In this document: in pieces, positions 1,248 to 21,189 of the stretch
How the letters are laid out: each line of letters opens with the position of its first letter
How positions within the stretch are numbered: the first letter of the stretch is position 1
Assembly: GCA_009936795.1 (NCBI GenBank)
Contig: JAACDM010000615.1
Location: 1-33,111, forward strand
Direction of reading: 5' to 3'
DNA length: 33,111 nt
From: Verrucomicrobiaceae bacterium
Lineage (GTDB): Bacteria > Verrucomicrobiota > Verrucomicrobiia > Verrucomicrobiales > DEV007
Made by a program: the position numbers and the translations under genes
The notes under the pieces: model-generated
Databases searched by the model: none
The model's input: only the letters and a program-made list of their open reading frames with translations
What the model was told of the DNA's origin: nothing

Positions 1248-4200
1248 TCACTCCGCTCCCGCAGCCCAAAGAAGCAGTTTCTCGATGATAGCTGTATTGT
1301 GATGATCTGCGATTGGGACACCACCAATTCCTTCACCTCTCAGCACACTGTTGCTAATCCAGCCGGCATCCGTAACACAGACGACACGACCCTTGCCTGG
1401 CTCAGCGATGCCTAACAAACACCCTTCAGCGTTGCGATCTCCTTTCAGGGGCGCTTGCGAGGTGTCATTGGCAACCAAGCTCCGCGGATTGGCTGGGTGA
1501 TCTTTCGCCAGCTCAATGAGATTACCCGTGTAGTAAGCCCACGTTTCCCCGCCGATGATCGGCGTGTCCTCAGCCAGCTTGATCCTCTTAATGTCAGTAT
1601 ACTGGTTCACCCAACGCATCCCAAAGTGTGCCAGCAACTGATTCGTCGTCTCCGTCTCCAGGTTGTGATTCTCTTGGTTCCCCATGAGGATGAGCCCACC
1701 GCCTTGGTAAACATAATCGCGAAGCTGTGAGATAGCTTCAGGCGAGAATCGTGGTGGCTCAGAACCATCCCCGATCGCTTTCGCACTGGGGTTGCTAATT
1801 AAGACCACGTCAATACCCGCAAGAGTCGCTACGGTTGGGGAAGCAGCGTCCACCTTGACCTCAAAAGGCTTTTCTAACACTTCCAGGATATCTCCATAGG
1901 TGCCGTCGGGCAAATAGCGCTTCTCCCCATCAGCGTTGAAATGTCTGCTATAGAGAAACGTTGGCTTCTCGGCAGGACTAAGAGCTGAAACACCAGGCAT
2001 CATCGTTCTGATAGACCACAGGTGACCACCAGCCGTGATGTAGAGCGTCTTCCAATCATCACCGCCGAAGGTGCAGTTCGTCACTTCATCCGTCGGGATG
2101 TGGACATAGTCCAACAACTTGCCGTCCGGAGTGATTACGTAGATTCCAGAAGTCGGTTGTTCTGAAATCTCCGCCGGGGGATTCGCTTGATGCAATCCCG
2201 CCGCCACGTAGAGCCTGCCTTCCGTATCCTGCGCCAGCCCATCGGGGCCGCGAGTTCCGGCCCAGTCATAGACGAGATAACGCGTATCGAGATCAACATT
2301 GCCATCCTCCCCGAGATCGAACCGCCACAACTTGCGAGCGGCTCCTACTGTGTTGTTGTGGTTGTCTGCCACGAAGAGATAGCGCTCGTCGTGCGACACA
2401 AGAATCCCATTGGGCCGATCAACCTCATGAGTAATGAAACGCGTGATGGTTCCGTTCGGATCGATGCGATACACGCCCTCGACTGGCTTGCCGTCCGTAT
2501 CCACTATTTCCAATCCCTCACGGTTTCCATAGCGTGGGTCGGTGAAGTAGATCCTCCCTTTCGAATCCTTGGTGAGGTCATTGGTCGCCGCGAATCGCTT
2601 TCCGGCATAAGTATCCGCTAGGATCTCCACCCGTCCATCCAAATGATGACGCGTGACCCGCTTCGACTTCGGTTCACAAACCAACAACGTGTTCTCAGTC
2701 TCAAACAACAGGCCGTTTGAACCCACCCCTTTTTTAAAAACACTGGTGACCCCGCCGAGATCCAATCGGTTGATGTTCCCTTCGCCACTGGTGAATAACC
2801 CCAGCTGCGGATGCCATGCCGGCCCCTCACCAGCACCCAACTTGAGAAGCTCCACTGGCTTAGCACCATCGGCGAAGATCTTGGCACTAGCGTCAGAAAC
2901 GGGAACATCACCAGGGAGATCCGAACGCGCTTGGTCCACTTCCTTCCCTTCCCAAATAACCGTTTCTCCATCATAGGTCAGGATACGGCTCGAACTTCTC
3001 GGCGCTGGCTTGGTACTAGTTTTTGGCATGAAAGAGGCCAAATGCGTCTTGATGTCGGCATGCTCCGCTAAGTGCGCGATATTTGTCCATTCGTGGGGAT
3101 CAGCCTCAAGATCGTAGAGCTCCTCAGTCCCGTCCGCGTAGCGAATGTAACGCCACTTCTCCGTGCAGGCACCGTGGTTGTCGTGGTTGTGCGTGGTGAG
3201 GGCAGGAAACTCTCGCGGCGCATCGGGATCTTTGAGTTGTGGCATGAGGCTATGCCCCTCCAAGTCATCCCGTTCTTTCAAATCGCAGAGTTCATTCAAC
3301 GTTGGATAGATGTCTAACAATTCAGCAGGGCGATGCGTGCGCTTTCCTGATCCCACACCCGGTCCGGCAAAGATCAGGGGCACACGCGTGCTATCTTGCC
3401 AAAGGGTGTTCTTTCCTGTGATGTCTTTCTCTCCCACATGCCAACCATGATCCGACCACAGGACGACCACCGTATCGTCAGTCTTGCCACTTGCTTCGAG
3501 AGCATCTAACACACGCCCTACTTGACTATCCACGAAACTGACACTTGCAAGATAAGACCGCGTGAGATGACGCCACTCATTGTTCTGCTTCAACCAACTC
3601 AGACGGGTCTCGGGTAGGTCCCAGTGCAAGTAAGAGGCAAACTTTGGCAAGTCGCTGCGATCTCCGTCCAAGTAAGGCGGCAGTTCCAAGGTGTCTTCAG
3701 GATAGAGATCGAACCATTTCTGCGTGGCATAACAAGGCACATGAGGAAGAAAGAAGCCGACCGCGAGAAAGAACGGATCTTCGGCTTCCGCTTGTTTGGC
3801 TAGCGCCTCGACCGCCCAACTCGCAACTTTCCAATCGCCCTTGTCCTCATCCCTGTGAGGAAACGTTCCCCAATCGACCAGAGGATGCTTTGCTGGGGTG
3901 TCGACAATTTTCTGAGCGGGCTTGGCACCAACACTGGCATTCGGTCCCCACTCATGAAACTCTCCCTCACGGCCACGTTTGCCGCCATGGTAGATCTTCC
4001 CACCGCTCAACGTGCGATAACCGTGATTCGCAAAGTGCTGTGCCAAGGTGACGCGATCCTTGAACGGCTCGACCGTCCGGAACCATGGAGCAAGGCCATA
4101 GATTCCCGTCGTCGACGGACGTAATCCTAACATCAGGCTTGTCCGCGAGGCATTGCAGAGAGGCGATTGGCAATGCGCATTTGTAAAGACCGTACCACGG

Positions 4201-4370
4201 GCAGCCAAACGATCCATGTGTGGCGTCTGAACCTGCGGATGCCCGCCGAGTGGACCAACCCAGTCATTGAGATCATCGATCGCAATGAACAGCACGTTAG
4301 GTTTCGCATCTGCTGAGCTGGACCACGTGCCGAGAACGACCAGAAAGACGAAAAGAAGGCGTTTCATCAT
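1248..4370 (-). CDS. Secreted sulfatase / SMP-30 gluconolactonase / GATase-like fusion protein
   Basis: The 1040-residue protein has three parts. A signal peptide (residues 1-22, ending SADA) is followed by an iduronate-2-sulfatase-type arylsulfatase (about 24-450). Its metal ligands are D32 and D33, its formylglycine site is C72-N-A-S-R76 (the CxAxR variant of CxPxR), and it has D307-H308 and K320. Residues about 490-795 form an SMP-30/gluconolactonase beta-propeller with candidate metal ligands E515, N597, N654 and D710. Residues about 800-1040 look like the GATase-like/ThuA-like fold seen in PVC proteins (GIDVVLISNP, YQGGGLILMGNQE). The first part would remove sulfate esters from polysaccharide, the second may hydrolyse a lactone, and the third has no assignable reaction. 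The frame is open throughout, so the fusion looks genuine. The start is a double Met directly before the signal peptide. Activation would require a formylglycine-generating enzyme, which is not in this window. Confidence 0.9.
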   Translation of the reverse strand: MMKRLLFVFLVVLGTWSSSADAKPNVLFIAIDDLNDWVGPLGGHPQVQTPHMDRLAARGTVFTNAHCQSPLCNASRTSLMLGLRPSTTGIYGLAPWFRTVEPFKDRVTLAQHFANHGYRTLSGGKIYHGGKRGREGEFHEWGPNASVGAKPAQKIVDTPAKHPLVDWGTFPHRDEDKGDWKVASWAVEALAKQAEAEDPFFLAVGFFLPHVPCYATQKWFDLYPEDTLELPPYLDGDRSDLPKFASYLHWDLPETRLSWLKQNNEWRHLTRSYLASVSFVDSQVGRVLDALEASGKTDDTVVVLWSDHGWHVGEKDITGKNTLWQDSTRVPLIFAGPGVGSGKRTHRPAELLDIYPTLNELCDLKERDDLEGHSLMPQLKDPDAPREFPALTTHNHDNHGACTEKWRYIRYADGTEELYDLEADPHEWTNIAHLAEHADIKTHLASFMPKTSTKPAPRSSSRILTYDGETVIWEGKEVDQARSDLPGDVPVSDASAKIFADGAKPVELLKLGAGEGPAWHPQLGLFTSGEGNINRLDLGGVTSVFKKGVGSNGLLFETENTLLVCEPKSKRVTRHHLDGRVEILADTYAGKRFAATNDLTKDSKGRIYFTDPRYGNREGLEIVDTDGKPVEGVYRIDPNGTITRFITHEVDRPNGILVSHDERYLFVADNHNNTVGAARKLWRFDLGEDGNVDLDTRYLVYDWAGTRGPDGLAQDTEGRLYVAAGLHQANPPAEISEQPTSGIYVITPDGKLLDYVHIPTDEVTNCTFGGDDWKTLYITAGGHLWSIRTMMPGVSALSPAEKPTFLYSRHFNADGEKRYLPDGTYGDILEVLEKPFEVKVDAASPTVATLAGIDVVLISNPSAKAIGDGSEPPRFSPEAISQLRDYVYQGGGLILMGNQENHNLETETTNQLLAHFGMRWVNQYTDIKRIKLAEDTPIIGGETWAYYTGNLIELAKDHPANPRSLVANDTSQAPLKGDRNAEGCLLGIAEPGKGRVVCVTDAGWISNSVLRGEGIGGVPIADHHNTAIIEKLLLWAAGAE

Positions 4371-4462: not shown

Positions 4463-5707
4463 ATGCCCGCTGACACTCCACCTCACCTCAACCGCGTACG
4501 CGTGCGGCGTTGGCATTTCGGGATGGTCGTGTTTCTCGCAGGCTACCACGTCTTTCAGAACATCTGGCTTCACCTCCTTTGGTTCGCTGCGACCGTGGCG
4601 TTGCCCTATTTCACCTGGCGTGGGTTTCCAAAGCAGCCGTCCAAATTTCATATCACTGCCACCGTATTCTGTGGGCTCATGCTGCTCCTGTCCTACCGGC
4701 CAGGCGCCTGGCCATCCAGCTTCGGATGGCTAGGCGTGCCACTCGCTCTCGGGGATACCTTGCTCTTCCTCGTCTTTATCGACGCCGCTTATCAGTTAGG
4801 TCATCGACGCGAGCATTTCCGCGAACGCACACTCTTCATCATCGTTCTGGTCGCTGCAGTTACCGCAGTGATCAGCCTGATCGTATTCTATGCCCTACCA
4901 ACCACACAGTTTCCGGCAAGTCGACTAAAGAACGTCATCGTACACTTCGGTCTCGCACCTGTCCTGACCGGCTTGCTCTTCGCTTCCGCTGGACTAACAG
5001 CCGCGTTACTTGCGTGTCGGGAGACCGTGACCAAGCGACGATGCCAACTCCTTGTGCTTGAAGCGATCCTTTTATTCTCAGCATTGTGTACCCAAACCCG
5101 TGGCGCTATCCTCGCCTTCATCGTCGGGCTCGTGATCCTGATCATTTGTCAGTTTCATCGCAAACTTCTTGGGCCCCTTGCCGTAATCGTCATCGTCTGC
5201 GCGATTTACCAATGGGCTCTGCCGTCTCTCAGTCGAGCGGTGTCCACCCAAGCACAGGAGGAGGCAAATCCTGCCAAGTCGTTAATCGTTCGGAAGGACG
5301 CTGGACGACTAAATCTCTACGAGATCATTCTCGACCGGATGGCACCACCCGTCGACTATGTGTTAGGACGTGGACGCTGGGCACCGGATACTGCTGGGCC
5401 TCCCGAGCAGTCTTGGCACGCCCATCACCCCCATAGCGTGTATCTCGCGACATTCTATCGCGGCGGAGGACTGGGCTTGATGGCGTTGGGAACCGTCATG
5501 TTCATTGGTCTCGTGCCTTGCTGGCGCGAAGCACGCGCAGGCCGCCCTGTATGGTTGATTCTCGCTGGCTTCGGCATGGCCGCCTTCCTGGTCGATGGCG
5601 ATGACCTTACCACGATCGCTTCCATGCCGCGTGTGGAACCTCTCCTCTTCTGGTTTCCCCTGGCTGCCGGTGCTGGAGCATCGGCAAGAGAACGAACTTC
5701 GCCTTGA
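4463..5707 (+). CDS. O-antigen ligase / Wzy-like polytopic membrane protein
   Basis: The 414-residue protein has about ten hydrophobic membrane segments. It carries the two features typical of the O-antigen ligase and polymerase superfamily: a TRGAILAFIVGLVI segment (around 210-225, the usual S/T-R-G-A-x-L-A) and a large extracytoplasmic loop containing HAHHPHSVYLATFYRGGGLGLMAL (the usual H-N-x-x-L ... GxxG). Members transfer or polymerise undecaprenyl-linked glycans at the periplasmic face of the inner membrane. The polymer handled here is unknown, and no glycosyltransferase neighbours are present to help. The gene starts a plus-strand pair: the next coding sequence begins 31 bases after its stop, so the two are probably cotranscribed. 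It could equally be called a Wzy polymerase, since sequence does not separate the two reliably. Confidence 0.75.
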   Translation: MPADTPPHLNRVRVRRWHFGMVVFLAGYHVFQNIWLHLLWFAATVALPYFTWRGFPKQPSKFHITATVFCGLMLLLSYRPGAWPSSFGWLGVPLALGDTLLFLVFIDAAYQLGHRREHFRERTLFIIVLVAAVTAVISLIVFYALPTTQFPASRLKNVIVHFGLAPVLTGLLFASAGLTAALLACRETVTKRRCQLLVLEAILLFSALCTQTRGAILAFIVGLVILIICQFHRKLLGPLAVIVIVCAIYQWALPSLSRAVSTQAQEEANPAKSLIVRKDAGRLNLYEIILDRMAPPVDYVLGRGRWAPDTAGPPEQSWHAHHPHSVYLATFYRGGGLGLMALGTVMFIGLVPCWREARAGRPVWLILAGFGMAAFLVDGDDLTTIASMPRVEPLLFWFPLAAGAGASARERTSP

Positions 5708-5737: not shown

Positions 5738-8700
5738 ATGCCCTCTAGAGACCGCGCAACGCTCCCACCGAAACTGCTTGAGCAGTTTCACTGCCTGCGT
5801 CGGCGACTTTGGCAAACCCGCTTCTTAGAATGGTCTGGCTTGGTCATCGTTGCGTTGATCAGCCTGTTCTTCGTCGTTTGGATATCCGACCGCGTCTGGG
5901 ACACTCCCTTAGCCTGGCGCATGGCTCTACTCGCCTGCATTTACATCACTCTGTTAGGATTCGCGTCATGGCTCTTCTTGCGCTGGGGCTTGCCGCTAAC
6001 CCGCTGGACGGCGCTCGGTAACTTCGTTCGGAGATGGGATCGCAAATCCGGCGATCGTGTTCTCGCTGCCGTTTCTCTAACAGAAGAAGAAGCACAGGCC
6101 GCTGAGTCGCCGCGCCTACGAGAAGCCGCCCTCGGGCAGATCGCGAATCAGCTTAGCCAAACTGATCTCACACCGAGCATCTCCCGCGTTTGGCTCAGAA
6201 GGGCTTCCACCTCCGTCATTGGCACGACGCTTCTACTTGGTCTTGTTCTTCTGCTAGCGCCTCATGCCAGCATGAACGCCGCAGTTCGGACGTTCCTCCC
6301 GTGGAAAGACACGCCTCGCTACACCTTTGTCCAGCTTGGCGACATCCCCTCGACCCACATCATCCCTCATGGTGAACCCACCATGGTCAGCGTCCCACTA
6401 AAGGAAGACTCCCCTTGGAGCCGTCCTCAAGGACACGCCACAGTACATGGCCAATCGCTCGTCGCGCCCTTGGAGAGGGGTGCCTACACCTTTGAACTCC
6501 CCGGACTCGTCAACGAGGAAACGCTCAGCGTTCGCATTGGCGATGCCCAAACGAAGATTCAGATTGTTCCCATGCACCGACCTGGGCTCGAACACTTGGA
6601 GGCCAACATCATCCTACCTACCTACTTGCAACACTCGCCACGGGTCACGGAAATCACCACCGGCAACTTGGAAGTCCTCACCGGAAGCCGCCTCCACCTC
6701 ACAGGCACCGTGACCCGTACGCTTGCCAAAGCAGACTTTCGCGGTGTCGATTCCCAAGCCCTTAGAATCGAAGGCCAGCAATTCCACACGCACACCCTTG
6801 AGATCAATGAACGCCCACAGATCTTGGAGATCAAGTGGGAAGATCAATTAGGACTCCTGGCACGCGATCCCTTGCGCGTAGAGCTTCGTCCCGTCCAAGA
6901 CAAGCCTCCCCGTGTCGAGCTGATCACTGGCACCTCGGCAGCGTTGACACTATTGGCACATGATACGGTTTCGTTCGGGCTACGAGCAGAAGACGACTTC
7001 GGCCTTCGTTCCATTGGGTATGTGTGGGGACCTTCAGGCGCAAAGCCAGAGGAACTCTGGCCAGATCAATCTCGTCAATCCAAAGAAGGTGGCGCTGAGG
7101 TTGTTTCGTTAGAAAATGATCTCACGTTTGCACCTAATACATTGGGACTGGCGCCTGGTAAGTGGCAATTCTGGGCTTACGCACAGGACTTTCAACCTGA
7201 AGCGCTGCCAAGTTTCTCATCGGCCAAGGTCCTCCAAGTGCTAACTGACGCCCAACACGCCTCCATGGTCCGCGCCCAGTTTCGACAGGTTCAAGAACAG
7301 CTTGAATCCATCGCCCGCGAGGAGGCCAGTCTGTTGCAAGAGAACCAAGCTCTCGCCCAAGCGGAGAATCTCGATCCAGCAGCACTCGACAAACAACAGA
7401 AGGCCGAACAGGAGACGGCCGACAAGCTCGCCGAGCTCACCACGCAATCGCAGGCTCTGTTAGAACAGGCCCTCAAGAATGATTCCATCGACACGACGGC
7501 CATGGATTCTTGGGGCGACATGCTAGCCGCCATGCAAAGTGTTTCACAGACAGGCATGCCGCAGGCATCGCAATCTCTCGGTCAGGCCAGTAACGCAGCT
7601 CAGGGTGGAAATTCTGGTCAGGCAAAGCAATCCCTTGCCGAGGCTATCGCCCAGCAAGAAGAGAACCTCAAACAACTCGCTGACGCCATGGGCGAAGCTC
7701 AACAAACGGAGGAAAAATTAGAAGCAGCAACCTTTGTCAATCGCCTTCGCGGTGTCGCCACAGCCGAGGAACGTATCGCCACCGAGATGAAGGCAACCGT
7801 ATTCCAATCGGCAGGACTCGCCCCTGTCCAACTGAATAAATCGGCGATGAAGGCTCTGGGCCTCCTTTCAGATAGCCATGACCTCACGCGCAACGAAGTC
7901 AACTACCTCATGACTGATCTAGAACACTATCATCGTCGCACCGACAAACCCATCTATGGGAAGGTTCATGGAGAGATGGTGCAGTCCAAGGTTCCCATTG
8001 AGCTAAGCCAAATCACCCGACGGGTGCAGCACAACCAGCACGGTCGCGTCATCCAAAGTAGCATTCGCTGGGCAAAGCAGTTTCACGCATGGGCAGACGC
8101 TCTCGCTGCTGACAAAGAACCCGAGAAAGAGGAACCAACTCAGGAAGGAGCAGGAGAAAGTGAAGGGAAGACGGACACAGAAACGCTGCTTGCGATCATG
8201 CGCCTCGTGCAACGCGAGATGGCACTCCGCGATCAAACCCGCGCCCTCGATCGACGCCGTAATCAAGCAGACTACCATGAAGCCGCCCAAGTATTGGAAC
8301 AGGAACAACGTGATCTTGGCTTCGCCGTCGCTGCGTTGTTAGCACGGGTCTTCGGACCTGAGGTTCAAATGCGCCTCCGCGCTGCCGGTTCTGCCATGAA
8401 CGATGCTGCCCTTCTATTAGAAAAACCCGAGACGGGTGGCGAGACTATCGCCGCCGAGACCGAGGTCATCGAGTTGCTCGGCAGCGCTGCCAAGAATGCT
8501 AGCCAGATGAGTGGGAATTCCAAAGGTATGCAGGCCCTAGCAGAGCTCCTCTCGCTCATGGAAGTTGGCAACAGTCCAGGTGGTAATCCCGAAGGTGCCG
8601 CGAGCAACCTTGCCTCGAACGCGACGACCGGCGTGACCACCGAGGACAATCGCGAACATCGCCAGATCGAAAAGACAACTGGCTATCAAAACGACAGCTT

Positions 8701-8800
8701 CCCCGAAGAATTTCGCGAAGCCCTAGGCAAGTTCTTCGAAGCTCGCGAAGCACTCATCGGTGCCCCAGCTGCAGAAGGCGAAGCTCGTTCATTTCCATAG
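5738..8800 (+). CDS. Large DUF4175-like membrane protein with long coiled coil
   Basis: The 1020-residue protein has three membrane segments (about 29-50, 62-81, 159-176), then an extracytoplasmic beta-rich region (about 190-500) and a long charged, Gln/Ala/Glu-rich coiled coil (about 505-665, 815-900) with a hydrophilic C terminus. By eye it parallels the 727-residue protein at 19006-21189: the same 2+1 membrane layout, RPGLEHLEANIILP against RPEINSIRLMTKPP, GSRLHLTGTVTRTLAKADF against GSSLGLKGVADKPLAKANI, and AEDDFGLRSIGYVW against LSDDFSLEEVKLSW. Its C-terminal half resembles the separate coiled-coil protein at 17177-19009. It therefore looks like a fused paralogue of two genes in the MoxR operon. 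Biochemical function is not known. It follows the O-antigen-ligase-like gene with a 30-bp gap. Confidence 0.8.
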   Translation: MPSRDRATLPPKLLEQFHCLRRRLWQTRFLEWSGLVIVALISLFFVVWISDRVWDTPLAWRMALLACIYITLLGFASWLFLRWGLPLTRWTALGNFVRRWDRKSGDRVLAAVSLTEEEAQAAESPRLREAALGQIANQLSQTDLTPSISRVWLRRASTSVIGTTLLLGLVLLLAPHASMNAAVRTFLPWKDTPRYTFVQLGDIPSTHIIPHGEPTMVSVPLKEDSPWSRPQGHATVHGQSLVAPLERGAYTFELPGLVNEETLSVRIGDAQTKIQIVPMHRPGLEHLEANIILPTYLQHSPRVTEITTGNLEVLTGSRLHLTGTVTRTLAKADFRGVDSQALRIEGQQFHTHTLEINERPQILEIKWEDQLGLLARDPLRVELRPVQDKPPRVELITGTSAALTLLAHDTVSFGLRAEDDFGLRSIGYVWGPSGAKPEELWPDQSRQSKEGGAEVVSLENDLTFAPNTLGLAPGKWQFWAYAQDFQPEALPSFSSAKVLQVLTDAQHASMVRAQFRQVQEQLESIAREEASLLQENQALAQAENLDPAALDKQQKAEQETADKLAELTTQSQALLEQALKNDSIDTTAMDSWGDMLAAMQSVSQTGMPQASQSLGQASNAAQGGNSGQAKQSLAEAIAQQEENLKQLADAMGEAQQTEEKLEAATFVNRLRGVATAEERIATEMKATVFQSAGLAPVQLNKSAMKALGLLSDSHDLTRNEVNYLMTDLEHYHRRTDKPIYGKVHGEMVQSKVPIELSQITRRVQHNQHGRVIQSSIRWAKQFHAWADALAADKEPEKEEPTQEGAGESEGKTDTETLLAIMRLVQREMALRDQTRALDRRRNQADYHEAAQVLEQEQRDLGFAVAALLARVFGPEVQMRLRAAGSAMNDAALLLEKPETGGETIAAETEVIELLGSAAKNASQMSGNSKGMQALAELLSLMEVGNSPGGNPEGAASNLASNATTGVTTEDNREHRQIEKTTGYQNDSFPEEFREALGKFFEAREALIGAPAAEGEARSFP

Positions 8801-8807
8801 CGAACCT

Positions 8808-9209
8808 CTAAAAAGCAGCGACGCGTTCGGCCAAATCAGGGTATGATTCTGCCTTCAGGCTCTCCACCTGCCGCGCCCACTTGGCCGTACGGGAGATTCC
8901 GGAGCTGTGGAAGGAGCGCACCTTGGGTTCTGAGGATACGGATCGCCATGCACCGATTCCGGTCTCGATCACGGCGGCAGTCGTCACAATACGCGTCGCT
9001 TTCTTCTCGTCCGTGACCAGTTCTCCAACAATTGGAATCCAGCTATTCACCGCTTTGCTAGGCAGATCTCCCACACTGGTTTCTAACGTGCCCCACACAA
9101 CCACCACATGACGCATGCCTGCTTGACCAGCGGCCATGCGCATGCGTTTTGAAGCACTCGCCTTGTCTTGCCCTTTCTTGCCGACAGGCAGGCCACTGAA
9201 CGGCACCAC
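8808..9209 (-). CDS. 5'-truncated remnant of a hypothetical (probably exported) protein
   Basis: The reverse-strand frame encodes 133 residues with protein-like composition. It has a hydrophobic core strand (MRHVVVVWGTLE), a second one (IVGELVTDEKKATRIVTTAAVIE), and ends LAERVAAF at a TAG, 7 bp from the convergent stop at 8800. I do not recognise a named family. The only possible start is a GTG (9209). Two codons upstream the frame meets a TAA that lies inside the left arm of the palindrome at 9214-9263. The frame opens mid-domain with no signal peptide or lipobox, so the 5' end was probably lost when that sequence arrived. It may be a dead fragment. The opposite-strand frame is shorter and less protein-like. 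Confidence 0.5.
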   Translation of the reverse strand: MVPFSGLPVGKKGQDKASASKRMRMAAGQAGMRHVVVVWGTLETSVGDLPSKAVNSWIPIVGELVTDEKKATRIVTTAAVIETGIGAWRSVSSEPKVRSFHSSGISRTAKWARQVESLKAESYPDLAERVAAF

Positions 9210-16131: not shown

Positions 16132-17190
16132 CTATTCGTTGTCCTCCTCGCCGCCGTCTTCCCCTTCCTGGAGGTCCTTGAAATACTGCTCCACCAATTC
16201 CCGATAGCGGGGCGGGTATTTGGATTTCAGGCCTGACAACGCATCCATTTCACGATCGCGCTTCCGGAGATCATCCCAGGCGCTCTTGGCAGCTCCACGA
16301 AGATCGCGCACTTTTTTAGGATCGTTTTGGGCAGAAGCATTACCACCAGGTTGCTGGCCCTGACCTTGGCCTTGTTGCTGACCTGGTTGTTGCTGCTGGC
16401 CCTGACCTTGGCCCTGGCCTTGCTGTTGTTGCTGCTGCTGTTGTTGTTGCTCAGCCTGCTCGATGATCTTGTCTAACATCGCAACGATCTCTTTCTGAAC
16501 TCCCTGCGTTTGCTCGCCGGAGTCTTCGAAACCCAAGCGACGATGCGAGTAATCCATATGCTCCGCGATGTCCTCGACGCTACCATCGAGCACACCAGTG
16601 ATACCGTCCAAAGTCGCTTGAGCAGACAATCGTAGCCGATCTGAAGCGTCGGGATAGTCTTCAAGAAACTGAGCTAACAACGCAATTCCCGCTTCCTTCT
16701 CCAGGCTATTTGCTTTGGCCACGCCTTGATAATAAAGAATATCACCATCGCGGATGGTGTGGTCGACGAATTCACCACTCAGACTCTCCAAATAGGGAAG
16801 ACACTCTTCATAGCGTTGCTGCGAAAAGAGAGTCCGGCCAAGCACATAGTTTGCTTCAGCAGCAAAGAAACGATCCTTCGATCGCGTCAGCTTGTAGAGC
16901 TGCTGTAGGCCCTTGTGGCCGTCACCTTCGCTGACTTTAGCGGCAGCTTCACCCAGCTCAGGATAAAGCGCCTGCAAGGCCAGTGCCATGCTCACGGTGA
17001 GTAGCGAGTCTTGTTTCTTGGCCTCGGAAATGGCAGTGGTCGCTGCTTGCTTTCGCTCGGCAGAGATCGCTTCATTATTCATGAAAGAATCGACAAATCT
17101 TTGGAAGACGGCATCTTCGTCGTCTTGTTGAGCTTGGCTCGTGCCTAGCATCAGGCATGTCGCCAATAATAACATTTTAGTCAATCGCAT
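16132..17190 (-). CDS. Secreted TPR-like protein with Gln/Gly-rich linker
   Basis: The 352-residue protein has a signal peptide (1-20, TSQA), a helical repeat region (about 25-205) of TPR character (AAEANYVLGRTLFSQQRYEECLPYLESL), a low-complexity Q/G tract (about 246-290), and a conserved charged C-terminal segment (PKKVRDLRGAAKSAWDDLRKRDREMD...YPPRYRELVEQYFKDLQE) ending in an acidic tail. I recall the C-terminal segment from MoxR-linked operons in planctomycetes and verrucomicrobia; its function is unknown. Its ATG lies inside the end of the upstream coiled-coil gene (14-bp overlap), suggesting translational coupling and a shared complex. A periplasmic adaptor or scaffold is a reasonable guess but is inference. 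Confidence 0.72.
   Translation of the reverse strand: MRLTKMLLLATCLMLGTSQAQQDDEDAVFQRFVDSFMNNEAISAERKQAATTAISEAKKQDSLLTVSMALALQALYPELGEAAAKVSEGDGHKGLQQLYKLTRSKDRFFAAEANYVLGRTLFSQQRYEECLPYLESLSGEFVDHTIRDGDILYYQGVAKANSLEKEAGIALLAQFLEDYPDASDRLRLSAQATLDGITGVLDGSVEDIAEHMDYSHRRLGFEDSGEQTQGVQKEIVAMLDKIIEQAEQQQQQQQQQQGQGQGQGQQQQPGQQQGQGQGQQPGGNASAQNDPKKVRDLRGAAKSAWDDLRKRDREMDALSGLKSKYPPRYRELVEQYFKDLQEGEDGGEEDNE
16321..16455 (-). repeat. CAG/CAA and GGC-rich low-complexity coding tract
   Basis: About 135 bp inside the TPR gene encode residues 246-290, made almost only of Gln, Gly and Pro (a run of twelve Gln, then QG dipeptides and QQQPGQQQ). Near-identical short units make it prone to slippage, so its length may vary among strains. 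Confidence 0.9.
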
Positions 17191-19009
17191 TGGGATCCTC
17201 CTGCGTCATCGTGGGTTGCAATTGCGTCGCCAATTGGCGCGTCATGTTGGTCAATTTGTCCTGCATGGCGGCGGCATTATCATAGCGGTCCTCCAATAGA
17301 TCAGCGAATTCCGGTTGAGCCTTGCCAACTTCCATCGCGGTGGTCTGTCGATTGATCCGCTGCTGCGTGAGCCGGAGAAGCTTCAACTCCGCAAGCGGCG
17401 GGAAGAGGCTTTGACGTTGTTGCTGCGGTTGACCACCTTGCTGGGGTTGACCACCTTGCTGGGGTTGGCCCATTTGGGTGTTTTCTAACGAAGCAACCAA
17501 CTCCTGCAACGTAGTCTCGATTTCGATATGCGCCTCACGCACGAGCAGACCCGTCTGTTGACGCTCCATCATCTCAGAAACGTTAGCGATCTCCGTTTGA
17601 AGGAAACCAACAACATCGCGGAAGACAATACTCGTGCCGTCATCGATCAAGAGCTGTTCAGCGGCCTGAGCATCTTCTTCCAGCGACCGCTCTGCCTTGG
17701 CCCACTTACGAAGTTCGATTCGATCCGCACGACGCAAACGTTCCGCATCACCACGACGTTCAGCAATGGCTTTCGTAGCCCCCGTCACGCTGCGCTGCGT
17801 TTCTAACATCTTCTGAAACACCTCGGCCAGCTTGACGATCTGTTCTTCCTGCGCCTGGTCTCGCAACTCGTTCAACTGGCGCTCTACCTCTTCTTTCGCC
17901 TTCTGCAGTTCCTCCTGCGCATTCTCCTGATTCTCTCCAGCCTTGCCCGCCTGATTCTGACCTAACTGTTGCGCCGCCTGATTCATTTGTTCCTGCGCTT
18001 TTTGGACACTCGCCGCTGGGGAATCTTCGCCATCTTTTGGCTCGCCGGCTTCAGCCATCTCTTGAGCAAGTTCATCGGTTTCACCAGCCGTTTCGCTCTG
18101 TTTCTCGGAGAGCTTACCGGCAGCTTCCTCACCAGCCATCTTGGCGAGTTGCTCCTTCTCTTGTTCAAGCGCCTTCAGCGCTTTCTTCAGACCCTCAATG
18201 GCTTTCTTCTCGGAGACAGCCGCCTCCTTAGGTTTGGCTTGGCCTAACTGATTCTCAGCCTCACGTTGACTGTTAGCAGCCTTACTCAGCGCCGATGACG
18301 CTTTCCCTTCGGAATCCGTTTCCTCGGCAAGCGCTTTCGTCTCTTGGCGAAGCTCAGCTTGCTCATCGGCCATCTGGTCGAGTGCATCGACATCGCTGCC
18401 GTTACTAACCTCAGTTCGGGCTAACAGCTCTTCCTGCTTCTTAATCAGATCCTGCGCCTTCTTCATCTTCGCGTCTAAAACCTCTTCCGCTTTCTTGGGA
18501 TCCTCGAGAATCTCGGTTTCTTCCTGCAGCTCGGCCTCCTGTTTGATCAGGCCTTCAAGCGATTCTTTCCATTTCTCAAGTTGCTCAATCTCACGCTGGA
18601 GACGCTCATACTCACTTTCCTCATAGAGAAGGAGGTCAATGAGCGCTTTAAGATCACCGACGACTTGGCCTTGCTCTTCCGTCGCACTCTCAAGCTTGGC
18701 GGCGTCTAACAACGCTGTGATCTGATCCATGCGCTGCATGAGCAAAAGCTCTTTGGACTGCTTAAACGCGTCTTCGAGCTTCTTGGCTTGATCGGGCTGT
18801 TCTTCACGGAGTTTGGAAGCGAGTTCGGTAAACTTGGATTCCAAGTCGTTCATCAATCGCTTGATACGCTGCTGCCTAGCACCTAACAAACTGGTATCGT
18901 CGGTACCTTGCGCCTCCGCAACAAGGCCACCAGCCACGAGATCCTGAGCAGACAGTGGCTCACAGACAAAGAGTCCCAACAGACTGGTAAGGAGGACAGG
19001 GATTCTCAT
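17177..19009 (-). CDS. Secreted coiled-coil protein of the MoxR operon
   Basis: The 610-residue protein begins with a signal peptide (1-21, PLSAQ) and is then nearly all heptad-like, charged coiled coil (about 40-400), rich in Glu, Lys, Gln and Ala. A second helical block follows (about 400-510), then a short repeated QPQQGG linker (about 513-530), and a C-terminal conserved helix LFPPLAELKLLRLTQQRINRQT (535-556). It should be periplasmic or surface located. The same kind of sequence forms the C-terminal half of the 1020-residue protein at 5738-8800, which supports a physical partnership with the upstream DUF4175-like protein. The two genes share an ATGA start/stop overlap, so translation is coupled. 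No enzyme motif is visible; a structural role is inferred. Confidence 0.7.
   Translation of the reverse strand: MRIPVLLTSLLGLFVCEPLSAQDLVAGGLVAEAQGTDDTSLLGARQQRIKRLMNDLESKFTELASKLREEQPDQAKKLEDAFKQSKELLLMQRMDQITALLDAAKLESATEEQGQVVGDLKALIDLLLYEESEYERLQREIEQLEKWKESLEGLIKQEAELQEETEILEDPKKAEEVLDAKMKKAQDLIKKQEELLARTEVSNGSDVDALDQMADEQAELRQETKALAEETDSEGKASSALSKAANSQREAENQLGQAKPKEAAVSEKKAIEGLKKALKALEQEKEQLAKMAGEEAAGKLSEKQSETAGETDELAQEMAEAGEPKDGEDSPAASVQKAQEQMNQAAQQLGQNQAGKAGENQENAQEELQKAKEEVERQLNELRDQAQEEQIVKLAEVFQKMLETQRSVTGATKAIAERRGDAERLRRADRIELRKWAKAERSLEEDAQAAEQLLIDDGTSIVFRDVVGFLQTEIANVSEMMERQQTGLLVREAHIEIETTLQELVASLENTQMGQPQQGGQPQQGGQPQQQRQSLFPPLAELKLLRLTQQRINRQTTAMEVGKAQPEFADLLEDRYDNAAAMQDKLTNMTRQLATQLQPTMTQEDPNAID
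17431..17466 (-). repeat. 18-bp perfect tandem repeat, two copies
   Basis: Two perfect 18-bp units (17431-17448 and 17449-17466), with partial flanking copies, encode the QPQQGG repeat of the coiled-coil protein. The unit is a multiple of three, so copy changes would keep the frame. Confidence 0.85.
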
Positions 19010-21189
19010 GGCTTCGGCTGTTTGGGTTCTAAGATATTCTCTAACAACTTCGCTTTCTCCGTATCGGTACGCGTGCGGAGATCTTGCTGAGATTTCTGAA
19101 TTTCGTAAAGGAGGTTTACGGCTTGCTGATAGCTCTCGTTCTTCACCATGTGGACGAGAATCGCCCTCAGTTGCTTCAAGGCAGATTGCTGATTCGTCAC
19201 GGCCGCTGTAAAGAGCACCTTCCGCTCTTCGATCTCCTTGCTTCTGCGCACGCGCTCTAGGTATTCAGAAGCGAGAGCGAGTTCATTCCGGGTAAGATCG
19301 TCGAGTGGCTCGATGATGCGCTCGCGAAGGCGCTCTTGGAGCACCCCATCCTTCTCCTCGAGCTTGTTATTCCCAATCTCCAGGATCATCCCTCGCAAAC
19401 GCTCAACGATGGGAAGGATGTTTTTAACCAAGAGCTTCTGCTGCTTCTGAGAACGCACGACTTGACTGCGCTGTTCACTTGTAAGATCACCCACACTTCG
19501 GGTTTCAGCGAGCAGCCCCTGGCATTCTGTAAGGAGTAGATCTTGGGTATCCACGATACCGGCAAGCAGTTCCCGCTGCGCTTTCTCTCGACGTAGGAGG
19601 TCATCCCGCATTTCCGCCTCGCTTACCACACGCACGATCAGCTCAGTGGACTTGCCAACTTTAGGTCCCGAAACCAGATCATTGTCGCTTGCCTGAAATC
19701 GAAGACTCAGACGAGAACCCACGGGAATGTCCAGGGATTCAATGTCAAACGCCTCGTCAAGTTCCATCGCTGGCTTACCTAACTCATTTGCAGCGCCGGC
19801 GGGTGTGTGCTCACCGGTCGTCTCATTGGCTTCGCTCGTGTCTTCCCGCCATTGCCAAGACAACTTGACTTCTTCCAATGAGAAGTCGTCCGACAATGTC
19901 GCTTTGAAAGGCAACCGGGCGCGCGCGACGACCATACCCCTGACACCGTGAAGACGAGCTTTTATCTGGGGCGTCTCATCGTCCTTCAGGCGAAGCTTAA
20001 AACGAAGTGGCTCGCGTGTGTCCAGTCCCTCGAGATCTTCCAGTTCCACTGTGTAAGAGCCAGAAGCCAACTCATCAGCAGCAACTTCGCCCGCAAACGC
20101 GTTCTCGCGAATCTGTAAGAGCCACTTGGTCTCGCCAGACACAATGTTCGCCTTAGCCAGTGGCTTGTCAGCCACACCTTTCAATCCGAGACTCGATCCT
20201 TTGAGTACATAATACGGCCCCTCACCCGGTGGGAGCTCTTGAATAGCCGTGCCTGTATACTCTGGCGGCTTGGTCATAAGCCTGATGCTGTTGATCTCTG
20301 GGCGCTGCTGTAAAGCGATCCGATACCATTCGCTTTTGATCTTCTTGGTGGAGAGTCGGAACTCTAACGGTTCGGTCACACTAATCATCTGGTGCCCGAA
20401 AGACTTACCATCATCGGCACGATCCATCAATTCCAGACGCCTTCCTGCTCCGCTGCGAAACTCAACCTTAGCCGACTCTGGCAAATATCGATAACCTTCC
20501 CGAACCACAGCAGTCAGTTGATAATCATCACCGCGTGGGATGCGTAAGGTCTGTCCCTCTGCATTGGCAACGTCGAAGTAGTAGTCCTGAGGCCACGCCG
20601 CATTACCTAATAAGACATTACGATTCAGCCACGTGCTCATAGTGTTTGTCTTCACGCAGGCAACACCTAGAACAACGCTCCCTAACAAGAGGACAGCGAG
20701 AAAGCAAAGGTTGGTCACAAACCGACCGTGACGCAAGACACCATCGAGAGACAGCTCCTCACTGACGGCAAGCCCTTTAGCAATAGACTCCTTGACCAAC
20801 CCAGGGGCCACGTTGGGCTGCTTGCTCCAATCCGTATGAGAGAACTCCAGCGCACTGATCAGCTCTTCGGAATACTCCCCATGCTTCTCCATCTCGAGAC
20901 AGAGCGCCTCATCGGTCAGCTTCGCTTTCAACGGACGCACCAGATGACGCCAGGCCACCCAGAGCAGCACACCAATCATGATTACTAACATGATCCCTCT
21001 CTGGGCCCGGTCCATGCGGAAAAACCAGTCAATTAGAAGATCCAAGGCAATGAGCGCAAAGGCCACACCAATCACTCGGATAAGACCATCAACTGTGAAC
21101 CACAAAGTGACACGACGACGTAACCTGCCCAGCTTGTCCGTGAGGACCTGCGGAAGCTTGTCAAGTGAGGTTAAGGCGTCGCTACTCAT
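19006..21189 (-). CDS. DUF4175-like membrane protein
   Basis: The 727-residue protein has two N-terminal membrane helices (about 34-54 and 63-80), a cytoplasmic section, and a third helix (about 157-178). This leaves the large C-terminal region outside the inner membrane. That region contains several Ig-like beta modules (strands such as RPEINSIRLMTKPPEYTG and LPFKATLSDDFSLEEVKLSW) and then an alpha-helical, charged C terminus (about 540-720). This is the layout of the DUF4175-type proteins found in MoxR/VWA operons. The gene begins 9 bp after the VWA gene and overlaps the coiled-coil gene by four bases (ATGA). A partner of the VWA proteins in an envelope complex is likely, but no reaction can be assigned. 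A fused paralogue lies at 5738-8800. Confidence 0.75.
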   Translation of the reverse strand: MSSDALTSLDKLPQVLTDKLGRLRRRVTLWFTVDGLIRVIGVAFALIALDLLIDWFFRMDRAQRGIMLVIMIGVLLWVAWRHLVRPLKAKLTDEALCLEMEKHGEYSEELISALEFSHTDWSKQPNVAPGLVKESIAKGLAVSEELSLDGVLRHGRFVTNLCFLAVLLLGSVVLGVACVKTNTMSTWLNRNVLLGNAAWPQDYYFDVANAEGQTLRIPRGDDYQLTAVVREGYRYLPESAKVEFRSGAGRRLELMDRADDGKSFGHQMISVTEPLEFRLSTKKIKSEWYRIALQQRPEINSIRLMTKPPEYTGTAIQELPPGEGPYYVLKGSSLGLKGVADKPLAKANIVSGETKWLLQIRENAFAGEVAADELASGSYTVELEDLEGLDTREPLRFKLRLKDDETPQIKARLHGVRGMVVARARLPFKATLSDDFSLEEVKLSWQWREDTSEANETTGEHTPAGAANELGKPAMELDEAFDIESLDIPVGSRLSLRFQASDNDLVSGPKVGKSTELIVRVVSEAEMRDDLLRREKAQRELLAGIVDTQDLLLTECQGLLAETRSVGDLTSEQRSQVVRSQKQQKLLVKNILPIVERLRGMILEIGNNKLEEKDGVLQERLRERIIEPLDDLTRNELALASEYLERVRRSKEIEERKVLFTAAVTNQQSALKQLRAILVHMVKNESYQQAVNLLYEIQKSQQDLRTRTDTEKAKLLENILEPKQPKP

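Follow-up and report, generated by a model that had tools for sequence, protein, structure and literature searches.

A probable orphan of a second MoxR operon type in a Verrucomicrobiaceae bacterium, and candidate UGA recoding among its relatives

The nearest known counterparts of the system considered here are the Bat/MoxR-DUF58-VWA operons, among them those with MRP-type MoxR, the cmd genes RL3499-RL3502 of Rhizobium leguminosarum and the bat genes of Bacteroides and Leptospira. Passages in the literature describe MoxR proteins as chaperone-like and involved in the maturation of complexes (PMC3893208) and report an important role of RL3499 in membrane integrity and morphology (PMC3893208, PMC5700661); a periplasmic redox role proposed for Bat proteins was not confirmed in Leptospira and deletion of bat in Leptospira biflexa gave no detected phenotype (PMC3557215). 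Here, we analysed a 33,111-nucleotide (nt) stretch of a Verrucomicrobiaceae bacterium (contig JAACDM010000615.1, the window in the following), in which positions 5738-8800 encode a 1020-residue protein that we call P1020. P1020 is probably the orphan of a protein family whose members are scaffolds of the inner membrane that face the periplasm and serve as the DUF4175-like component of a MoxR-DUF58-BatA-VWA operon of a second type ("type-2"), and the Wzy-like ligase gene next to P1020 would stand there by chance. The window also contains a type-1 MoxR operon, whose MoxR, DUF58 and BatA proteins were confirmed by Pfam and which encodes the proteins P727, P610 and TPR352 (Table 1).

The usual operon of the P1020 family resembles the described systems in having MoxR (AAA_3), DUF58 and BatA-type proteins. 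It differs in adding the family protein itself (P1150), X, a cyclase-like protein (SqC) and Y, which the passages on Bat/MoxR operons do not describe, and P1020 in the window stands without an own-type MoxR partner beside it. In its overall layout P1020 is similar to Pfam DUF4175 (PF13779)/TIGR02302. Matches to this Pfam family are distant, in one of 26 P1020-family proteins (E ≤ 0.01; E = 7e-4) and in six of 11 P610-family proteins (E ≤ 0.1, best 3e-7); P1020 itself matched nothing in Pfam at E ≤ 1 and nothing significantly in NCBIfam, and membership by the curated cut-off was rejected. The only match over the DUF4175 cut-off in the window's genome (contig C732 of G000, locus L188, 1452-3986, + strand) is broken into several frames within a single stretch, with a TAG inside the match. 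Passages in the literature report DUF4175 for an Acinetobacter division gene, and none of the papers searched treats both DUF4175 and MoxR.

The comparison covered the genome of the window and 56 related ones, 57 in all. A scan of genome contigs with P1020 alone as query returned no relative; a scan of named genomes gave 107 relatives, of which 80 loci were kept, from Verrucomicrobiota, Planctomycetota and Candidatus Poribacteria. Matches to P1020 were present in 38 of the 57 genomes, the window's own included, the closest being those of the congeners G003 (54%) and G001 (50%), with no other one close. P1020 is homologous over its full length to the P1150 family (best matches with E from 0 to 1e-50), many full-length members of which have 1070-1200 residues. 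A frequent gene order around family members is MoxR-DUF58-BatA-VWA-P1150-X-SqC-Y: among those of the 80 loci with sufficient flank, and with MoxR and DUF58 accepted on either strand, the genes found upstream were VWA (41 of 69), MoxR (24 of 50) and DUF58 (25 of 50), and SqC and Y were found downstream in 55 and 53 of 61, respectively. In the type-2 operon of locus L073, MoxR, DUF58 and BatA were confirmed by Pfam, and the VWA protein had no Pfam match at E ≤ 0.001. The VWA, BatA and SqC family alignments may have rows in common, and those profile comparisons were left unused.

The sequence-only reading of this stretch had taken P1020 for a second copy of the type-1 operon components, and the tree places it elsewhere. 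In a tree of the N-terminal halves (52 rows), P727 and the related classes of about 1350 and 565 residues split from the P1020 family with a Shimodaira-Hasegawa-like approximate likelihood ratio support of 100, and P1020 with its counterparts in G003 and G001 forms one clade on the P1020-family side. Judged from this tree, P1020 is an old paralogue from the other operon type, in a clade apart from P727. The two types also nearly exclude each other: P727-type (matches at E < 1e-100) and P1150-type proteins (E < 1e-50) occur together in three of the 57 genomes, all of the window's genus, P727-type alone in 12, P1150-type alone in 31 and neither in 11 (Fisher p 4.8e-4, a statistic that ignores phylogeny).

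Around the P1020 gene of the window, neither MoxR-DUF58-BatA-VWA nor the cyclase-like and Y genes were found. The P1020 orthologue of G003 overlaps an SqC-like gene by 4 nt, followed by a 969-residue Y open reading frame (ORF), and SqC orthologues (77-79%) beside Y are located elsewhere in the window's genome (G000, on other contigs), in G001 and in G002; the gene upstream of the SqC/Y pair in G000 and G002 resembles moaC. G001 and G003 also possess a normal family member, that of G001 in a full type-2 operon, the contig of G003 being a fragment. The third congener and closest genome, G002 (88% complete), yielded no P1020 homologue. From these comparisons P1020 is a divergent family member now separated from its operon partners. 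The dispersal of the partners, the missing homologue in G002 and the lack of a cysteine motif before the C-terminal module (see below) would fit a relic in decay, left over from a type-2 operon now lost and itself without present function, a reading that we consider unlikely, with full-length open frames at 50-54% identity and conserved motifs in three genomes of the genus and with good model confidence speaking against it.

The O-antigen-ligase-like gene noted beside the 1020-residue ORF is indeed there, on the same strand and 30 nt away, which would suit a two-gene glycan-ligation unit with the scaffold positioning the ligase. Against such a unit, no relative of the ligase (Wzy414) was found in any of the 80 loci, two congeners included (tblastn, E ≤ 1e-5; at least 2.5 kb of upstream sequence in 69 loci and under 2.5 kb in 11), and among the PF04932 (Wzy_C) matches listed in the 57 genomes no other one lies near a P1020-family gene, as compared by eye. 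The one congener with a ligase orthologue, G003 (51%), has it away from P1020, beside what we take to be fumarase-like and peptidase-like genes; the gene next to P1020 encodes an M20 peptidase in G003 and a Gfo/Idh-type enzyme in G001. We consider the glycan-ligation unit very improbable; the adjacency, seen in this genome only, looks accidental and is thus uninformative about surface glycan, on which it had been taken to hint. Further upstream, a single 1040-residue ORF (1248-4370, - strand) joins a sulfatase and an SMP-30/gluconolactonase-like domain.

The hydropathy profile of P1020 contains hydrophobic helices at residues 29-47, 58-76 and 156-174, the same pattern as in P727. An AlphaFold model (mean predicted local distance difference test score, pLDDT, of 85.7 with 66 input sequences) starts with the same three helices, continues with beta strands (residues 206-502) and a helical region (504-944) and closes with a disordered linker and a last helix (990-1008). 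The beta-strand region resembles immunoglobulin (Ig)/fibronectin type III (FnIII) proteins, with Foldseek E-values down to 5e-6 and VIA Z-scores up to 9.6, the best VIA match aligning 186 residues at a root-mean-square deviation of 9.9. When modelled alone (pLDDT 84.2, 40 sequences), the helical half packs as bundles, and neither model has a long coiled coil. Its structure matches, with a best Foldseek E of 0.15 and VIA Z-scores of up to 16.5, are uninformative because the targets are designed and generic helix bundles. By sequence, no relative with a solved structure was found at E ≤ 0.01. A defence-system or phage origin was considered and rejected, PADLOC giving no match for five proteins and PHROGs none for two (E ≤ 0.01).

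The N-terminal half is where the likeness to the 727-residue protein holds up. BLASTP aligned residues 261-430 of P1020 with P727 at E 1e-6, and in a profile-profile comparison by hhalign residues 3-448 aligned with residues 6-461 of the P727 family with a probability (Prob) of 99.7, E 3e-27 and a score of 213, against scores of at most 30.7 for 30 block shuffles. The genes of P727 and P610 overlap by ATGA, in agreement with the translational coupling noted earlier. If the helical half of P1020 were in turn a P610, P1020 would be a fusion of the two and thereby direct evidence, of the Rosetta-stone kind, for binding between P727 and P610. P610 gave BLASTP E 0.11 against P1020 and hhalign Prob 22 with the whole family or 32 with residues 500-660 (E 9e-4 to 5e-4), over residues 510-661 of P1020 only (139-286 of P610). 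None of 60 heptad-block shuffles was as good for either cut, and the reversed controls come to 34.5 versus 41.0 (whole family) and 21.5 versus 34.6 (residues 500-660). Also in favour of a fusion, the short class that has the N-terminal half only is accompanied by a separate coiled-coil protein with homology to P610 (Prob 94, E 1.3e-7; reversed 1.0), P610 of the window covers DUF4175 positions 502-746 as one of the six distant matches mentioned above, and the end of P610 (residues 523-598) gave matches by hidden Markov model (HMM) to the region corresponding to residues ~808-868 of P1020 in two Poribacteria proteins (best HMMER E 4.3e-4 and 1.8e-3; reversed HMM best 0.28), a profile of its last 170 residues giving one match, at E 4.3e-4.

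Whole-profile HMMER searches with the C-terminal parts of the P1020 family returned neither P610 nor P727 among matches at E ≤ 10, and the P610 profile reached P1020-family members at best with E 0.02. Residues 815-1020 of P1020 against the C-terminal part of P610 gave Prob 0.3, equalled by nine of 20 shuffles. The tree position of P1020 outside the P727 clade likewise speaks against a fusion, as does, weakly, the whole-length P727 alignment, which also spans residues 510-652 of P1020; cut out alone, this stretch did not match the end of P727 (Prob 2). Because whole-profile HMMER was negative, hhalign remained at Prob 22-32 and the C-terminal comparison was nil, a fusion of P727 plus P610 is not demonstrated; we regard it as unlikely, and from these sequence comparisons direct homology of the helical half to P610 is not established. 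What stands of the sequence-only reading is that P1020 is related to a MoxR-operon component and that comparing one-chain with split arrangements is informative.

The third protein of the type-1 set, TPR352 (352 residues), is a better match for the C-terminal module and end motif of P1020 than P610 is, as judged from profiles and motifs. In 62 of 71 P1020-family members the motif P.[EYR][YF]R..L..[YF][FY] occurs among the final 45 residues, against a background of 11 in 11,555 interior windows, and seven of nine TPR352-family ORFs have it; TPR352 of the window ends with YPPRYRELVEQYF. The motif was present in 107 of 3245 unique ORFs, and all but three of the 53 such ORFs outside the 71-row set look DUF4175-like or TPR352-related. 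This end motif, common to DUF4175-like scaffolds and TPR352, is a possible docking tag. A second motif, TG...E.I.LL, aligns residues 880-915 of P1020 with residues 205-240 of TPR352 in hhalign (Prob 80, E 1.4e-5 and none of 20 shuffles as good with the profile cut 815-1020; Prob 37 with 650-1020; Prob 34 with 54 columns and none of 60 shuffles as good), and both motifs occur in P1020 in the TPR352 order, the motifs being short. Searched with the HMM of the P1020 module, four of the nine TPR352 proteins came up at E 0.03, 0.05, 2 and 5, with both motifs spanned in the best two.

The module is separable. In f2 (Akkermansia-like) genomes the family gene is split into proteins of 844-870 and 217-236 residues with an ATGA-type overlap, and in f6 genomes into 906 and 245 residues. 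The separate C-terminal genes of both lineages start with an apparent signal peptide, judged by eye, and the module would therefore be periplasmic. C-terminal ORFs of 194-195 residues in loci L113, L115 and L173 lie in frame behind a TGA and were not counted as splits. Other paralogue classes have the same N-terminal half as a protein of about 565 residues with a separate coiled-coil gene, or in one chain of about 1350 residues. The former, a third arrangement, is seen in L196 (5461-10835, - strand), L195 and L197, and the L196-led coiled-coil profile is the one homologous to P610. The P727-P610-TPR352 set shares N-half homology, the TG motif and the C-terminal motif with P1020 and differs in comprising three coupled chains instead of one and in its separate clade. 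If all matches hold, it is plausible that P727, P610 and TPR352, encoded by three consecutive genes, are in gene order collinear with P1020 from its N to its C terminus, and in this modified form the Rosetta-stone idea stands.

Several observations weigh against P1020 as a scaffold orphaned from a MoxR operon and equivalent to the three-chain set. VWA is absent upstream in 28 of the 69 loci with flank, many of which are half operons P1150-X-SqC-Y, and because this half often stands alone, dependence on MoxR is not proven. The tree was a quick one, and the tool warned of long branches meeting, the main split included. The TPR352 match is short and its probability depends on the profile cut (34 to 80), and the module HMM reaches two of nine TPR352 proteins at E 0.03-0.05 and two more at 2-5. 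The resemblance of the P610 end to residues 808-868 is marginal in hhalign (Prob 9, score 20.2 versus a shuffle maximum of 20.0), and the reciprocal search with the P1020 module found no P610. In the literature, no experiment on any P1020-family member was found.

Table 1 Positions of the features in the window and of the in-frame TGA codons in related loci (L numbers).
Feature	Position	Strand	Basis or remark
P1020, orphan DUF4175-like membrane scaffold protein (probable), 1020 residues	5738..8800	+	ORF; matches in 38/57 genomes and 80 loci
P1020 residues 1-448, P727-homologous half	5738..7081	+	hhalign Prob 99.7, E 3e-27
P1020 residues 195-502, three tandem Ig/FnIII-like beta domains, putatively periplasmic	6320..7243	+	AlphaFold, Foldseek, VIA
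P1020 residues 504-791, packed helical bundles, weakly similar to P610 141-252	7247..8110	+	hhalign, AlphaFold
P1020 residues 808-944, C-terminal helical module; own coupled or adjacent gene in lineages f2 and f6	8159..8569	+	
P1020 residues 880-917, TG motif M..A..L..PETG..IAAETE.IELL, common to TPR352	8375..8488	+	hhalign Prob 80
P1020 residues 988-1004, C-terminal motif PEEFR..L..FF	8699..8749	+	motif count
Wzy_C (O-antigen ligase/polymerase-like) gene	4463..5707	+	Pfam E 9.3e-13; 30 nt before P1020
TPR352, type-1 operon	16132..17190	-	TG motif 16471-16578; C-terminal motif 16177-16218
P610, type-1 operon	17177..19009	-	end 17216-17407 weakly resembles P1020 residues ~808-868
P727, type-1 MoxR operon	19006..21189	-	N-part 19807-21174 homologous to P1020 residues 3-448
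In-frame TGA at CxxC site	L115:12785-12787; L113:5607-5609; L173:5289-5291		
In-frame TGA at CxxC site, L082	near 200-residue ORF 8215-8817	-	
In-frame TGA, Poribacteria	L120:12335-12337		same place in L123, L127, L128, L131, L138, L143, L147, L177, L178

Upstream of the module, many relatives of P1020 carry a cysteine and a few an in-frame TGA. A pattern search for the module start, whose pattern misses P1020's own clade, yielded 59 unique sequences; within at most 14 residues upstream, 33 have a cysteine, four an in-frame TGA and 22 neither. In a stricter recount (32, 4 and 21, respectively) 29 of the 32 sequences with cysteine have it eight or nine residues ahead of the module, mostly in a CxxC, and the TGA lies 9, 10, 9 and 9 residues ahead. 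The four TGA genes belong to G012 (L073/L115), G005 (L082), G044 (L087/L173) and a Pirellulaceae genome (L113), thus to two phyla, and on both sides of the TGA they align in frame with relatives. All four have a hairpin 16-37 nt after the TGA that resembles a bacterial selenocysteine insertion sequence (SECIS), with -9.9, -8.7, -8.1 and -7.3 kcal/mol versus means of -1.9 in the 32 Cys genes and -1.0 in the 21 others (Mann-Whitney p 3.7e-4, n = 4). Some genes without a TGA also reach -8 to -10.5 kcal/mol, and the whole-stretch fold z-scores of three TGA genes were -2.3, -0.8 and -0.3. Passages of PMC13188914 give as bacterial SECIS criteria a spacing of 16-37 nt, an energy of -7.5 kcal/mol and a loop of 3-9 nt with a G at one of its first two positions; L087 lies narrowly outside two of them, being slightly weaker than -7.5 and having an 11-nt loop. 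A selenocysteine tRNA (tRNA-Sec; 120 candidates scored per genome) was found in three of the four TGA genomes versus four of 18 without TGA (Fisher p 0.08); the TGA genome without a match is G012, the congener of which, G024, has tRNA-Sec. The P1020 family may well include selenoproteins, with these four relatives as candidates on the grounds of codon position and RNA folding, and re-initiation behind the TGA may be the alternative for any of them. P1020 itself lacks the pre-module CxxC site, since its sole cysteines are residues 19 and 67. A possible redox partner is the Y protein of L073, which has a thioredoxin-like domain at its end.

Ten of 13 Poribacteria loci share a different, conserved in-frame TGA, located ahead of the region that can be aligned to P1020 from residue 650 or so onwards; the three other loci are uninterrupted. 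Nine nt after this TGA lies the 18-nt block GGAGGAATGGGCATTCCT, which is invariant including its synonymous sites, with varying flanking codons; the exact 18-mer occurs in 12 of 84 genomes of the phylum, all 12 of which have the TGA. The block can form a hairpin of 6-7 base pairs with its loop 17 nt after the TGA, at -4.0 to -6.9 kcal/mol and so weaker than the published limit; in L138 another hairpin came out best. Of six loci tested, two had fold z-scores of -2.8 and -2.6 and the other four had scores between -0.9 and 1.0. SelB exceeded the cut-off in nine of 11 tested, and tRNA-Sec was found in ten of the 12 genomes with the 18-mer and in all three uninterrupted ones; it does not discriminate, because the uninterrupted genomes have it too. 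Counting against selenocysteine, the uninterrupted homologues have Pro or Gln near the place of the TGA and no Cys. The TGA with its 18-nt block is a candidate for recoding or translational coupling. Translation might alternatively re-initiate at an ATG 15 nt downstream of the TGA; against this, the GGAGG is 1 nt from this ATG and the resulting ORF has no signal peptide by eye. Poribacteria and selenocysteine are mentioned together in the literature.

Taken over the whole family, these sites could point to a new family with selenoproteins among its members, in which MoxR operons encode a periplasmic scaffold as one chain or as up to three coupled ones that have a C-terminal docking motif in common, and in which UGA, read as selenocysteine, replaces a CxxC cysteine in some Verrucomicrobiota and Planctomycetota and a second UGA occurs in Poribacteria; we advance this tentatively, at somewhat less than even chances. 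In the literature found, selenoprotein and MoxR appear jointly in a cancer review only, and in the main text of the 2026 review PMC13188914 the terms Planctomyc-, Verrucomicrob-, Poribacteri- and MoxR are absent.

For the scaffold as such, we infer a role, topology and mode of docking as follows. Three membrane helices would anchor the protein, and the Ig-like domains and helical bundles would form a periplasmic rod, whose short C-terminal motif may dock on a partner. The MoxR/VWA machinery could then assemble or remodel the envelope complex of the scaffold, and the CxxC before the module in many relatives, in a few of them probably with selenocysteine, may be a redox or metal site that P1020 is without. 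The type-1 operon would build an equivalent scaffold from the three coupled chains P727, P610 and TPR352.

Among the proteins of MoxR operons, those other than the ATPase are largely uncharacterised, and here a second operon type, a separable module and a shared end motif give concrete candidate interaction pairs; a misleading link of P1020 to glycan ligation is removed. Should the UGA codons encode selenocysteine, these operons would be linked to periplasmic redox chemistry by a site of the CxxC/CxxU type; at least some of the MoxR/Bat envelope machinery would then work as a redox system, of which P1020 would be a redox-dead orphan.

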